The translations under genes and the position numbers were made by a program. This document shows, piece by piece, positions 3,729 through 56,086 of a stretch of DNA of 64,000 bases. The notes under the pieces were generated by a model. It searched no databases and had not been told where the DNA came from. It was given only the letters and a program-made list of their open reading frames with translations. The stretch spans positions 2,108,001-2,172,000 of the forward strand of contig CP014761.1 of assembly GCA_001647635.1 (NCBI GenBank), in the 5' to 3' direction. Position 1 is the first letter of the stretch; each line of letters begins with the position of its first letter. Origin of the DNA: Leifsonia xyli. Its GTDB lineage: Bacteria > Actinomycetota > Actinomycetes > Actinomycetales > Microbacteriaceae.

Positions 3729-3746
3729 CATCGCCCAAGAAAGCGC

Positions 3747-3802
3747 GAAGTGCAGCTTGTTGCGCACCTGCACGGCGTGTCGACCGCAACTAGCTGCCCT
3801 TC
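3747..3802 (+). repeat. 56-bp inverted-repeat element, copy a
   Basis: Arms GAAGTGCAGCTTGTTGCG and CGCAACTAGCTGCCCTTC pair with two mismatches around an asymmetric centre that contains GGCGTGTCGACCG. Copies of exactly the same length and orientation occur at 31480-31535 and 49992-50047. This copy lies 48 bases beyond the lacI stop and 19 bases upstream of the operator-promoter of the binding-protein gene, so it could also serve as a transcription terminator for the lacI operon. Confidence 0.85.
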
Positions 3803-3850
3803 GGCGGCTGGTGGGTGGGAAGGGGGACGGCGGGAGGGGAGGGGGAGGGG

Positions 3851-51984: not shown

Positions 51985-52752
51985 GTGGCCGAGGACGAAG
52001 CTGTCGCGATCAGGATCCGCGGGCTGCACAAGCGGTTCGGCGAGAAGGTCGCGGTGGACGGGATCGACCTGGATGTGCCGTCCGGCAGCTTCTACGGTCT
52101 GGTCGGACCGAATGGCGCCGGAAAGACCACGACGCTCAGCATGGCCACCGGGCTGCTCCGCCCGGACGCCGGGCAGGTGCTCATCCACGGCGTCGACATG
52201 TGGCAGCGGCCGCTGGTCGCCAAGGCGATGGTCGGCGTGCTCTCGGACGGCGTGCGGCTCTTCGACCGGCTGACCGGCCAGCAGCTGGTCGAGTACGCGG
52301 GACTGCTGAGCGGGATGGACCGGCCGACCGCCCAGCAGCGCACCGCCGACCTGCTCCAGTTGCTCGATCTGCAGTCCGCGGGCGGCACGCTCGTCGTCGA
52401 CTACTCGGCCGGTATGACGAAGAAGATCGCCCTGGCCGCCGCTATGGTCCACGCACCGCGGGTGCTGGTGCTGGACGAGCCGTTCGAGTCTGTCGACCCC
52501 GTGTCGGCGGCGAACATCCGCGACATCCTGCGCACCTACGTGCAGGGCGGCGGCACGGTCGTCGTGTCCTCGCACGTGATGGACCTGGTCGAGCGGATGT
52601 GCGACCACGTCGCCGTCATCAGCGCCGGCCGCGTGCTGGCCGCCGGCTCGGTGAATGACGTCCGCGCCGGGTCCACGCTCGAGGACCGCTTCGTCGAGCT
52701 CGTCGGCGGGCGCCGGGTCGGGGAGGGGCCGGAGTGGTTGCGACACTCGTAA
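51985..52752 (+). CDS. ABC transporter ATP-binding protein (exporter type)
   Basis: 255-residue ATPase. Walker A VGPNGAGKTTTLSMATG (about residue 40), degenerate signature DYSAGMTKKIALAAAM (normally LSGGQ), Walker B VLVLDEPFESVDPVSAANI and switch His in VVVSSHVMDLVERM. It belongs to the drug/antibiotic or multi-subunit exporter group rather than to sugar importers. The start is GTG 51985 after GAGGGGG; the frame upstream to 51955 lacks a ribosome site. It overlaps the following permease gene by 19 bases. Confidence 0.9.
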   Translation: MAEDEAVAIRIRGLHKRFGEKVAVDGIDLDVPSGSFYGLVGPNGAGKTTTLSMATGLLRPDAGQVLIHGVDMWQRPLVAKAMVGVLSDGVRLFDRLTGQQLVEYAGLLSGMDRPTAQQRTADLLQLLDLQSAGGTLVVDYSAGMTKKIALAAAMVHAPRVLVLDEPFESVDPVSAANIRDILRTYVQGGGTVVVSSHVMDLVERMCDHVAVISAGRVLAAGSVNDVRAGSTLEDRFVELVGGRRVGEGPEWLRHS

Positions 52753-54304
52753 GGCTGCGGCTGCTCGTGCTGCGGAACTCGTTCCGTCGCAGCACCAGCC
52801 AGCTGGTGGCCGTCATCATCGGCGCCGTGTACGGCGCAGGGGGCCTGCTCGTCGTTCTGGCCGCGCTCGTCGGTCTGTCGTTCGCTCCTCCCGAGGTCGC
52901 GACCACCGCCGTCGTGCTGGCCGGATCGGCGGCCGTGCTCGGGTGGGCCGTCTTCCCGCTGCTGCTGTCGGGCGTCGAGCAGACGCTCGATCCCGGCCAC
53001 CTGGCCGTGTATCCGATCGGCCTCCGACCCCTGATGCTCGGGATGCTGCTGAGCGGAGCCGTCGGCGTCGCGGGCGCGGCGACCACCATCGCATCCCTCG
53101 GGACCGCGCTGCCGTGGCTGCGGTCGCCCGGCGTTGCGCTGATCGCGCTGGTCACCGGGGCTCTTGGGGCCGCGACGTGCATCGTCGTGTCGCGGGCGGT
53201 CACCTCGGTCGCGAGCGGCCTGGCCTCGGGGCGGCGGTTCCGAGAGGCGAGCGGGCTGCTCATCCTGATCCCGCTCATCCTCGCCGGGCCGATCGTCATC
53301 GGCATCACCAGCGGCCTGCGCAGCTCGGCGGACGCGCTGCCGTCCATCGCCGCCGGCCTCGGCTGGTCGCCGCTCGGAGCGGCGTGGGCCGTGCCGGGCG
53401 CCGTCGCCGCGGGCGACCCGCTCGGCGCGCTGCTGCGGCTGCTGGTCGCCGTCGCGACCTTCGTCGTGCTGTGGTTCGTGTGGCGCTGGGGACTCGCGCG
53501 CTCGCTCGTGACCCCGGTCCGCGCGTCGTCGCGGGTGCGGGCCCCGGGGACGTCGGGGCTGTTCGGGGTGCTTCCCGGGACCGCCGCCGGCGCGATCGCC
53601 GCGCGGTGCCTGACCTACTGGTTCCGCGACCCGCGCTACCTGCGGCAGCTGCTCGTCATCCCGCTGCTGCCGGCCGTCATGTGGTTCTACTCGAGCATCA
53701 ACCACTCCACCGGCTACATCTTCGCCGTCGGCCCGGTCGTCGCGTTCGCGCTGGGGATCGGGATGATCGCCGACGTCTCGTACGACTCCACGGCCTTCGC
53801 GCTGCACGTCTCCAAGGCGGTGCCCGGACGCGCCGACCGCTGGGCCGCGCCTCCGCGCTGCTCTCGTTCGCCGTGCCGGCCGTCGCGATCATCACGCTGG
53901 GCTCGGTCGCGGCCGAGGGCGACTGGCTGCCCGCACCCGGCCTGCTCGGACTCACGCTCGGGATGCTGCTGAGCGGCGTCGCCGTGTGCTCGGTGACGTC
54001 GGCGCGGTTCGTGTTCCCGGTGCCCGAGCCCGGCGACAACCCGTTCCGGTCGCGCCCCGGCGCGAACATCTCGCTGCTCGGGCCGACGTTCGCCGCGTGG
54101 GGGGTGATCGCGGTGCTGTGCCTGCCGGAGGTCGTGCTGCTCGTCGTCTCCCTCGTGACGCGCGAGGCGGTGTGGGGCTGGCTCGGGCTCGCGGCGGGCG
54201 TGGTCCTCGGTGCGGTGCTGCTCGTCGTCGGCGTCCGCATCGGCGGCCGCGTCTTGGACGTTCGCGCCCCGGAGCTGCTGCAGCAGCTCCGCAAGGACGG
54301 CTGA
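52734..54304 (+). pseudogene. ABC exporter permease with one frameshift
   Basis: Large membrane subunit paired with the ATPase above. GTG 52734 has GGAGGGG upstream. The first 370 or so residues hold repeated helices (FRRSTSQLVAVIIGAVYGAG; LMLGMLLSGAVGVAGAATTI; RQLLVIPLLPAVMWFYSSIN) and end at PGRADRW; the next frame continues GRASALLSFAVPAVAIITLG to 54304 with four more helices. Adding one G to the G3 run at 53842-53844 gives an unbroken 523-residue protein. As the loss is in a G run, a sequencing error is likely; otherwise the exporter is inactive. Confidence 0.82.
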
Positions 54305-54325
54305 CGGCTCCACCGCCCTGCAGTT

Positions 54326-54371
54326 GACGCAACACGCCGCAATGCGTGCGTTTGGGACGGCGTGTTGCGTC
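54326..54371. repeat. Palindrome A1
   Basis: GACGCAACACGCCG and CGGCGTGTTGCGTC, exact 14-bp arms, 18-base loop; 22 bases after the ABC permease stop. Confidence 0.9.
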
Positions 54372-54430
54372 CACCAGGAAGCGGTCGAGGCGGCGTGGAC
54401 GGCTGCCGCCCGGTTCACCCATCCAGTGGG

Positions 54431-54472
54431 CCCAACACGCCGCTATGCGGATGGGCGTAACGGCGTGTTGGG
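54431..54472. repeat. Palindrome B1
   Basis: CCCAACACGCCG and CGGCGTGTTGGG, exact 12-bp arms, 18-base loop. Confidence 0.9.
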
Positions 54473-54590
54473 ACCGGTGGATGCAGCAATGCCGACGGCG
54501 TTGCAAGCGTCGCCGGGTGACGGGCGATCCGCCACCTGGTGGGCGTGAATTGCCGTCAGGCGGATGGGCGTGGTGCGCCCGCGCCTCTCG

Positions 54591-54640
54591 TTGACGCAAC
54601 ACGCCGCGATGCATGCGTTGGCGACGGCGTGTTGCGTCAA
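54591..54640. repeat. Palindrome A2
   Basis: TTGACGCAACACGCCG and CGGCGTGTTGCGTCAA, exact 16-bp arms, 18-base loop; the longest stem of the set. Confidence 0.92.
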
Positions 54641-54695
54641 CCGAAGGGGCCGGGACGGCGTGGCCGGCGGCCGACCGGTCCACCCGACTAGTGGG

Positions 54696-54737
54696 CCCAA
54701 CACGCCGTCAGGCGGGTGGGCGTGACGGCGTGTTGGG
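54696..54737. repeat. Palindrome B2
   Basis: CCCAACACGCCGTCA and TGACGGCGTGTTGGG, exact 15-bp arms (12-base loop; 18 bases measured from the shared core). Confidence 0.9.
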
Positions 54738-54781
54738 ACGAGTAGGTGCGGCGGCGGTTGAGCGCGTGCGAGGGTGGACGG

Positions 54782-55288
54782 GTGGAGGAGACGGAAGCGG
54801 CGGGCGCGGACTGGCGGCCGGTGGTCGCGGCGTTGGCCAACGGCGACGCGCGCGCGGTGTGGGCTGCGGTCGTGGCGACGGGCGAGACGGACGCGGGCCT
54901 GGGCGCCGCGCGGACGCGGCGAGCGCTGGATCTGCTTGAACGGGTCGGGCTGGTACGACGGGTCGGCGACTCCGTGGTGGCGGATGACGGCGTGTTCCGG
55001 AACCTCCTCGCCGCGTCGGCCGCGGTCCGGCCCCGGCCGACCGGGGTGGGGCAGTTCCTGCGGGCGGACGGGCGGATCGACCGGTATCCGTCGTCGGCGG
55101 ACGACCGGATGGCGCTCCTGCGCATGGTCGCGGAGTCCGTGCTCTCGGACGGCGAGGTCGTCGGTGAGCGGGCGCTGACCGAGCGGCTGGCGGAGCGCAG
55201 CGACGACCCGGTCGCCCTGCGGCGCTACCTCGTGGACGCGGGGCTCGTAGTCCGCACCCGCTCGGGCTCGGAGTACGCGCGCGGGTGA
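54782..55288 (+). CDS. DUF2087-domain protein inside the palindrome cluster
   Basis: 168-residue cytoplasmic protein. The N-terminal half (WRPVVAALANGDARAVWAAV; RRALDLLERVGLVRRVGDSV) looks like a small winged helix; the C-terminal half (GQFLRADGRIDRYPSSADDR; EVVGERALTERLAERSDDPV; ALRRYLVDAGLVVRTRSGSEY) is a DUF2087 domain, found in many putative transcription factors. GTG 54782 (VEETEAAG) was chosen; an upstream start at 54746 is possible. It is enclosed by palindromes, with a copy starting 9 bases after its stop. DNA binding to these palindromes is an attractive but untested idea. Confidence 0.8.
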   Translation: MEETEAAGADWRPVVAALANGDARAVWAAVVATGETDAGLGAARTRRALDLLERVGLVRRVGDSVVADDGVFRNLLAASAAVRPRPTGVGQFLRADGRIDRYPSSADDRMALLRMVAESVLSDGEVVGERALTERLAERSDDPVALRRYLVDAGLVVRTRSGSEYARG

Positions 55289-55297
55289 GCGACGGGG

Positions 55298-55338
55298 CGC
55301 AACACGCCGCCACGCCGTGGCGATAACGGCGTGTTGCG
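55298..55338. repeat. Palindrome A3 after the DUF2087 gene
   Basis: CGCAACACGCCG and CGGCGTGTTGCG, exact 12-bp arms with a 17-base loop, between the stop of the DUF2087 gene and the end of the convergent CGNR gene. Confidence 0.9.
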
Positions 55339-55354
55339 ACCCCTGGCCGCGCGG

Positions 55355-55951
55355 CTAGGCGTGCGCGCGCCTCTGCATCTTGACGGCGTTGCCGCAGCCG
55401 GCCATGGTGCACCAGCGGCTGGAGCGGTTCTTGGAGTAGTCGTAGTACGCCCAGCGGCAGGTCGCGCGGTCGCAGACCTTCAGGCGCGACCAACTGCCGT
55501 CCTCGCGGGACGCGCGCACCGCGTCGAGGACGCCCGCCAGCGCGTTCAGGACCCGATCGCCACCGGCGGGAGCGAGGGACAACGCCCCTGAGGTGCCGAA
55601 GGTCACCCGCACCGGCAGCTGCGCGAGCGCCTGGTCGAGCCGGCCGGCCGCTGCGGCGTCGACGTCGTGGCCGGCGTGGCCCGCCAGGACGCTGCGGAGA
55701 CCTTCGCGGACCGTCTTCGCAAGCTCGAGGTCGTCCTCGGAGGCGGCTGCGTCGCCGCTGAGCAGCTCGCGTGCACGCAACCATGCCGTGAGGTCGGCCG
55801 GGCGCTCCCAGCCCTCCTCGTCCTCCTGGTACTCGACGGTGTTCACGAAGTCGCGGACGAGACGCAACGGGACGGGGATGACCTCGTCCTCGCGCTGGAA
55901 CGCCGCAAACAGGTTTAGCCGGGGTGGAGGTCGACGTGGATCAGACAGCAC
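55355..55951 (-). CDS. CGNR zinc-finger regulator (ABATE domain)
   Basis: 198-residue DNA-binding protein. An N-terminal ABATE-type domain (PLRLVRDFVNTVEYQEDEEG; LARGLxSVL-like region) is followed by the CGNR zinc finger CDRATCRWAYYDYSKNRSSR and WCTMAGCGNAVKMQRR, whose four Cys bind zinc. These proteins are stress-related regulators in actinobacteria. GTG 55951 is taken as start with no clear ribosome site; a start nearer LNLFAAFQRED cannot be excluded. The 135 bases up to the next gene hold no gene. Confidence 0.85.
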   Translation of the reverse strand: MLSDPRRPPPRLNLFAAFQREDEVIPVPLRLVRDFVNTVEYQEDEEGWERPADLTAWLRARELLSGDAAASEDDLELAKTVREGLRSVLAGHAGHDVDAAAAGRLDQALAQLPVRVTFGTSGALSLAPAGGDRVLNALAGVLDAVRASREDGSWSRLKVCDRATCRWAYYDYSKNRSSRWCTMAGCGNAVKMQRRAHA

Positions 55952-56086
55952 CGTGGATATGGATCCGCTATCGGGCGATGCGGGCACGTCGATTCGCACG
56001 GCGCGCGGGCGGCGACCGGTGGATGGACAGCATCTCACCCTGGGCCTTCTGGGGCCTGCACCGCTGAGCGGGCCCCGCGATGCGCT

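Follow-up and report, generated by a model that had tools for sequence, protein, structure and literature searches.

The palindromes clustered around a DUF2087 gene in the chromosome of Leifsonia xyli appear, judging from sequence comparison, to belong to a DNA-cutting enzyme that resembles repair or homing endonucleases and whose own gene is bracketed by such palindromes. They are dispersed at a fixed geometry and bracket the enzyme gene, with which they co-diverge; empty sites exist, and the protein has conserved residues of catalytic type and a predicted nuclease fold. We consider it probable that this endonuclease, which joins an AbiEi-like part to a Vsr/EDxHD-type part, has the palindromes as its cognate repeats, with cutting and repair as their likely means of dispersal.

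The palindrome array and its chromosomal family

The window, by which we mean the whole 64,000-nucleotide stretch analysed (positions 2108001-2172000 of contig C1 of a 3.60-Mb single-contig genome, G000), holds five perfect core pairs of the form CAACACGCCG-N17/18-CGGCGTGTTG, starting at 54330, 54433, 54597, 54698 and 55300, where 100 dinucleotide shuffles gave a mean of 0.00. The five core palindromes with a 17-18-base spacer that had been picked out in a first-pass annotation are thus real. Because pairing extends past the core in every window copy (7-10 of the 14 outer bases), each unit is an imperfect palindrome of about 66 bp, and as single-stranded DNA the five fold with z scores of -4.2 to -7.6. 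The R1 covariance model, trained on 47 copies from this genome with the five window copies among them, matches in the window exactly these five palindromes, on both strands.

None of the five has a strand of its own. Two of type A (54316..54381, core pair 54330-54367, 53.6 bits with R1; 54583..54648, core pair 54597-54634, 57.6 bits) alternate with two of type B (54419..54484, core pair 54433-54470, 72.5 bits; 54684..54749, core pair 54698-54735, 66.5 bits), all four with a spacer of 18. The earlier description of two alternating arm types holds for these four copies and fails for the fifth, which is of a third type, C (55286..55350, core pair 55300-55336, spacer 17, 59.1 bits), and sits between the convergent stops of the DUF2087 and CGNR genes. 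The tandem A-B unit with its 265-base period is confirmed, 54378-54487 being 81% identical to 54643-54752. What had been taken for a worn third unit exists as a remnant, but is merely the degenerate left half of one type B palindrome (54536..54572, no strand), 78% identical to 54688-54724 over 37 nt and missed by R1.

The enclosed gene (54746..55288, plus strand, with a start that may lie at 54782) does encode a DUF2087 domain (PF09860, 6.1e-15) and is an incidental host of the array. Its convergent neighbour, at 55355..56038 on the minus strand, encodes an ABATE/CGNR zinc-finger regulator. The ABC permease gene at 52734-54304 occupies two frames in the window versus one continuous frame in relatives, and this split makes it look frameshifted or affected by a sequencing error.

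The cluster had been read as a local structure, whereas the family extends well beyond the locus. The chromosome carries 25 perfect core pairs, and their spacer is always 17 or 18 in a search that permitted 5 to 30. Exact half-cores number 84, versus 10 occurrences of the reversed pattern. In the DNA of this genome around half-cores, all pairs with 0 or 1 mismatch likewise have a spacer of 17 or 18, and a relaxed search there (at most 3 mismatches, spacer 5 to 40) yielded 47 elements. When arm types are assigned by the closest of three templates of our own making, the spacer is 18 in 16/16 elements of type A and 9/9 of type B, and 17 in 21/22 of type C. Close arrays are common, with a spacing of 62-64 bp at three loci (L013, L053, L057) and five elements within about 570 bp at another (L008). 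The perfect copies are unevenly spread along the chromosome: 14/25 lie in 0.30-1.24 Mb and none in 1.24-1.91 or 2.59-3.40 Mb. A single motif of the DNA-uptake kind was considered and rejected, as 50 of the 84 exact occurrences of CAACACGCCG belong to perfect pairs and many others have a partner with 1-3 mismatches.

A palindrome-bracketed enzyme

In Leifsonia, Microbacterium and Agromyces, some elements form pairs separated by about 1 kb; the enclosed gene was of the same type, coding for about 300 aa, in 5/5 such loci examined. Bracketing is not exclusive to this enzyme, since the DUF2087 gene of the window and another gene (L055) are bracketed too. An early set of 14 enzyme-coding loci, in which some are one gene under two records and most were found via the element, had elements nearby in 14/14 and on both sides in 12/14.

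Because these early loci mostly came through the element, an unbiased protein search was made of 28 genomes of the genus. It separated a top, focal clade (E <= 3.2e-68, the next best match at 9.3e-57) that is represented by a single gene per genome in 19/28 genomes. R1 palindromes flank the focal gene on both sides in 16/19 cases (weakly at L228), on one side in 2/19, where the contigs end, and on neither side at L222 in G018. At the last of these, palindromes with a different core are visible by eye on both sides, and at L228 (G005) the flanking palindromes are near-identical, with a strongly changed core and a 29-bp shared stretch, so that the palindrome type may have changed here recently. 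No R1 match was found at the 11 best paralogue loci.

Presence of the focal gene goes with abundance of the palindromes: genomes that have it contain 19-118 R1 matches, against 1, 2, 4, 35, 3, 0, 0, 0 and 0 in the nine that lack it (Mann-Whitney p 2.9e-5). The gene lies between ybaK-like and dsbA-like genes, where the homology gap is 1180-1322 bp in the 17 gene-bearing loci with both neighbours in view and 53-252 bp in the nine genomes without it. No focal-core palindrome was found at the nine empty ybaK-dsbA sites, and therefore gene and palindromes come or go together; since the site is the same in all genomes, the focal gene does not hop often. The genome with 35 R1 matches, no focal gene and an empty site (G009, C1:814710 region, L280) could represent a lineage that lost the enzyme gene, its repeats outliving the enzyme. 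Two focal copies appear broken, one by a single internal TGA (L219, G010) and the other by being in two pieces (L236, G020); despite this, these genomes keep 58 and 80 R1 matches, respectively.

The C-terminal part of the protein has a predicted Vsr/EDxHD-type PD-(D/E)XK nuclease fold, and E198, D230, H247 and D257 are jointly present in 82/83 homologues. The N-terminal part of the predicted model resembles AbiEi, and PADLOC AbiEi models match 4/5 enzyme proteins (E <= 2e-5). In the fold comparison, the second aligner was run on Foldseek's own candidates. Homologues are currently named 'very-short-patch-repair endonuclease' or 'endonuclease domain-containing protein', and the association with palindromes offers them a role.

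Matched palindromes around enzyme homologues

The association holds when the palindrome sequence is not specified in advance. In a blind test, which sought palindromes within about 350-400 bp on either side of a gene that share at least a 10-mer, 42/57 enzyme loci of the genus and the order passed, against 1/200 random intervals; by group, the counts were 15/17 for the top clade, 9/11 for paralogues and 18/29 for other Micrococcales. One locus outside the genus (L251, G601) passes by way of a 392-bp identical duplication that includes the palindrome of the enzyme homologue. Extended to 112 homologue loci of the genus, with 7 at contig ends set aside and a few of the weakest matches left out, the test was passed by 71/96 main and 2/9 distant homologues, so that a quarter do not pass. 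Other genes of 500-1400 bp passed in 2/39 and 7/349 cases, and the difference between 71/96 and 9/388 is pronounced (Fisher p 4e-53). All three homologues in the genome of the window pass, as do 2/3 from Arthrobacter plasmids; a distant Nonomuraea homologue does not.

The palindrome sequence varies between enzyme clades and follows protein relatedness. Over the 62 loci with both protein and palindrome, the two divergences are correlated (Mantel r 0.584, with 0/2000 permutations as high). A 10-mer is shared by 77% of pairs at protein identity of at least 60%, by 25-30% at 45-60% and by about 5% below 45%, and the best palindrome partner falls among the 8 nearest proteins for 48/56 loci versus 7.3 expected. 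The enzyme tree used has 83 rows. The palindromes flanking one gene have no preferred mutual orientation, 20 of 73 pairs being inverted, 19 direct and 34 undecided.

Further families accompany other enzyme clades. The arm GATTCGTSACGAATS flanks members of one such clade, which has a gene at 909403 in the genome of the window, and in G008 the gene at C1:877302-878054 has pairs on either side among the places listed. Counted on both strands, so that certain sites matching both are counted twice, this arm occurs 237 times in G017, 125 in G008, 66 in G007, 23 in G000, 3 in G009 and 0 in G012 and G014; its reversed control occurs 0 times in all seven. A third family flanks the paralogue at G000:C1:1204013 (L277) and is represented by a single free copy in the 259 kb searched of this genome, a palindrome of about 58 bp within the window at 3746..3803 (no strand). 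The motif CRACACGCCG lies near 12/93 non-focal homologues versus 27/1000 background 500-bp windows and may be a shared core. The loci that have it include L239, L240, L277, L303, L333, L335 and L352, and at several it forms the loop of palindromes with arms unlike those of the focal family.

Proposed mechanism and significance

What could connect such an enzyme with palindromes far from its gene? In the explanation that we propose, a protein of about 300 aa is encoded in each lineage between two copies of a clade-specific palindrome of about 57-66 bp, free copies of which are scattered over the genome, by preference at gene ends. The AbiEi-like N-terminal part would recognise the palindrome arms, and the nuclease would cut or nick at or near them, in the duplex or in an extruded hairpin. 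Repair would then copy palindromes to new sites or convert older copies, giving them the arm type now current. Binding and cleavage, like the dispersal route and any benefit to the host, are what we infer.

Conversion in place is favoured by the observation that orthologous junctions differ in arm type and loop between species (A at L007 versus C at L128; B at L002 versus C at L109 and L113), as does the element downstream of the enzyme across the loci of four species. It is favoured further by the fact that the palindromes flanking one enzyme share arms without a fixed orientation. Copies would persist at the 3' ends of genes, the places in which they might do least harm and may serve as two-way terminators; such a distribution would result if insertions into promoters and genes were selected against. 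The window would represent a local burst of the family around an unrelated DUF2087 gene. Two further junctions deserve mention: tandem composite A-C units at L024 and L112 occupy a junction that is C-A-C in the genome of the window, and at L201 a single near-loopless palindrome with the middle CGCAACAC-CC-GGCGTGTTGCG stands where that genome carries a five-element array.

A wider proposition, which we regard as evenly balanced, is that AbiEi-Vsr fusion endonucleases generate and keep rewriting a many-family class of dispersed Micrococcales palindromes. Such a class would be a convergent counterpart of REP/RAYT based on homing-endonuclease chemistry (cutting plus gene conversion, with no HUH transposase), in which the specificities of enzyme and palindrome co-evolve by clade. 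In PMC3733652 and PMC6006769, the bacterial palindromes that are dispersed and have an enzyme of their own go with HUH/Y1 enzymes, and the present case offers an actinobacterial repeat-plus-enzyme system on an unrelated fold. The origin and spread of palindrome families without RAYTs become testable, as does the co-evolution of nuclease and repeat, for which the 62 enzyme-palindrome pairs suit a specificity swap.

Alternative explanations

The palindromes might instead be bidirectional transcription terminators selected at convergent gene ends, with the enzyme gene merely insulated on each side. We regard this as unlikely, even though their location speaks for it. Among the 47 elements of the genome, 28 are flanked by convergent genes and 18 by co-directional ones, 1 falls in a called gene and none is in a divergent spacer, while only 4% of intergenic bases in the window and 9% in the named loci belong to convergent spacers. 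Of the 156 distinct elements of the window and L001-L137, 91 are convergent and 48 co-directional, 7 are divergent, and the other 10 are unassigned or lie in genes; this set omits eight loci judged to be chance matches or plain terminators (L064, L072, L076, L079, L088, L096, L119, L124), the duplicate L014 and L138-L177, and all context counts depend on a simple GC3 gene caller of our own. In the own-genome elements, the distance between core and gene stop is often about 15-30 bp, certain convergent junctions consist of almost nothing but the element, and the good folding of the window copies also fits termination.

Speaking against termination, TTTT follows within 30 nt past the core in just 1/48 co-directional and 2/91 convergent copies, and no terminator-like site was found at 54200-55500. 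If the hairpin were selected as RNA, G-U pairs should outnumber A-C mismatches on the transcribed strand; co-directional copies show no excess on the sense strand (G-U 74 vs A-C 69), whereas convergent copies show a slight skew on the plus strand, an arbitrary choice for them (149 vs 114, nominal p 0.036). Selection on RNA structure, one reading of the structure-based selection suggested in the first-pass annotation, thus gains no support from the co-directional copies in this low-power test. No Rfam family exceeds its gathering score at 53800-55800; the best match scores 24.1 bits, for a family whose threshold is 50. Termination would need neither a conserved core with a fixed 17/18 spacer nor a clade-specific sequence matching the enzyme tree, and matched palindrome pairs are rare around other genes (9/388, as above). 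A terminator role as a by-product is possible.

It is rather improbable that the palindromes are operators through which the AbiEi-like domain autoregulates its own gene and controls a regulon via the free copies. Inverted repeats are bound by AbiEi proteins, and both the AbiEi-like character of the predicted N-terminal part, with its PADLOC matches, and the co-divergence of palindromes and protein agree with such a role. Against it, the gene has a palindrome on its downstream side in addition to the upstream one, few free copies stand between divergent genes (0/47 and 7/156), and a pure repressor would not need the nuclease residues that are kept in 82/83 homologues.

Very improbable is the movement of the palindromes, as REPs, by an undetected HUH/Y1 transposase, notwithstanding their REP-like form, location and array behaviour. 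The likeness to REP/BIME elements drawn in the first-pass annotation stands as regards form, the palindromes being dispersed and mostly at gene 3' ends; the RAYT transposase expected with it was not found in the genus genomes, and a different enzyme is associated. PF01797 was found in 0/28 genomes of the genus and in 5/14 control genomes, on which grounds RAYT/REP proper was rejected, and the account in the relevant portion of PMC6006769 gives Actinobacteridae TnpA of subclass 1.1 (IS200-type) only.

A role of the array as multi-site operator of the DUF2087 protein, as had been proposed from the enclosure of the gene by five palindromes, is extremely improbable and, as a general explanation, refuted. 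A DUF2087 relative occurs in 13/28 genus genomes, and R1 places a palindrome within roughly 1.5 kb at 0/12 orthologue loci outside the genome of the window; conversely, seven genomes (G010, G016, G019, G021, G023, G024, G026) that lack a DUF2087 match contain 50-112 R1 matches. The same permease-DUF2087 order is found without the array in G020, G022 and G025, where the gap is a palindrome-free 104, 85 and 37 bp, versus about 490-500 bp with four palindromes inside it in the window. Two of these (G020, G022) retain the CGNR gene too, with no core palindrome ahead of it. The suggested search of the core through this genome and its relatives thus returned a dispersed family, mostly at gene 3' ends, and not one restricted to DUF2087 loci.

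Relation to known systems

By analogy of behaviour, the closest known system to the bracketed endonuclease and its repeats is that of REP/REPIN elements with TnpA-REP/RAYT (REPtrons). As described in parts of PMC3733652 and PMC6006769, these too have dispersed intergenic palindromes concentrated at the 3' ends of genes, a single enzyme gene for each repeat type, flanked by its own repeats, and multiple repeat types with matching enzymes within one genome. The enzyme here is a predicted AbiEi-Vsr fusion and not an HUH Y1 protein, and the units are palindromes of about 57-66 bp, against the 20-40 bp given for REPs in the same portions of those sources. Since the defining HUH enzyme was looked for and not found, we do not class the system as a REPtron. 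Neither a GTAG nor a CGTC tetranucleotide foot is evident at the palindrome consensus ends; CGTC repeats are left without any enzyme in the part of PMC3733652 concerned.

The EDxHD homing endonuclease I-Bth0305I (3R3P) and Vsr (1CW0) differ from the present enzyme, which has an AbiEi-like N-terminus fused on and is bracketed by cognate palindromes. The AbiEi antitoxin of abortive-infection/type IV TA systems (6Y8Q) differs in turn from a protein fused to a nuclease whose palindromes flank both sides of the gene and occur genome-wide. MITEs and IS elements with TIRs are similar in that a coding unit lies between similar short repeats with many non-coding copies, and empty sites exist here; unlike in those elements, each end is a whole palindrome without fixed orientation, and the focal gene is single-copy per genome at a single site. 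Inspection by eye showed no target duplication in the orthologous pairs, though their flanks (67-94% identical) are too diverged for a firm reading, and an ordinary TIR transposon was rejected on the flat orientation counts reported above. Among open-access papers, judged by titles and the openings of abstracts, none was found that links DUF559, AbiEi or Vsr-like nucleases to dispersed palindromes.

Distribution among genomes

A perfect core pair is present in 18/28 genus genomes and in 6/293 other genomes of the family sample (11/299 with the genus members of that sample counted); one genus copy, in G021, has a spacer of 16. R1 matches occur in 24/28 genus genomes, at 1 to 118 per genome with both strands counted, the high counts being lower bounds because 150 candidates were scored per genome. 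Among the 80 loci listed, the named records with a core pair include Leifsonia, Agromyces, Microbacterium, Sinomonas, Micrococcus and Dermatophilaceae. Apparent cross-phylum matches (Sphingomonas, Rhodococcus, Desulfovibrio, Prevotellaceae and others) were dismissed by eye as chance or plain terminators. The exact core pair was found in 0 viral contigs. A single enzyme homologue lies in an unannotated phage record.
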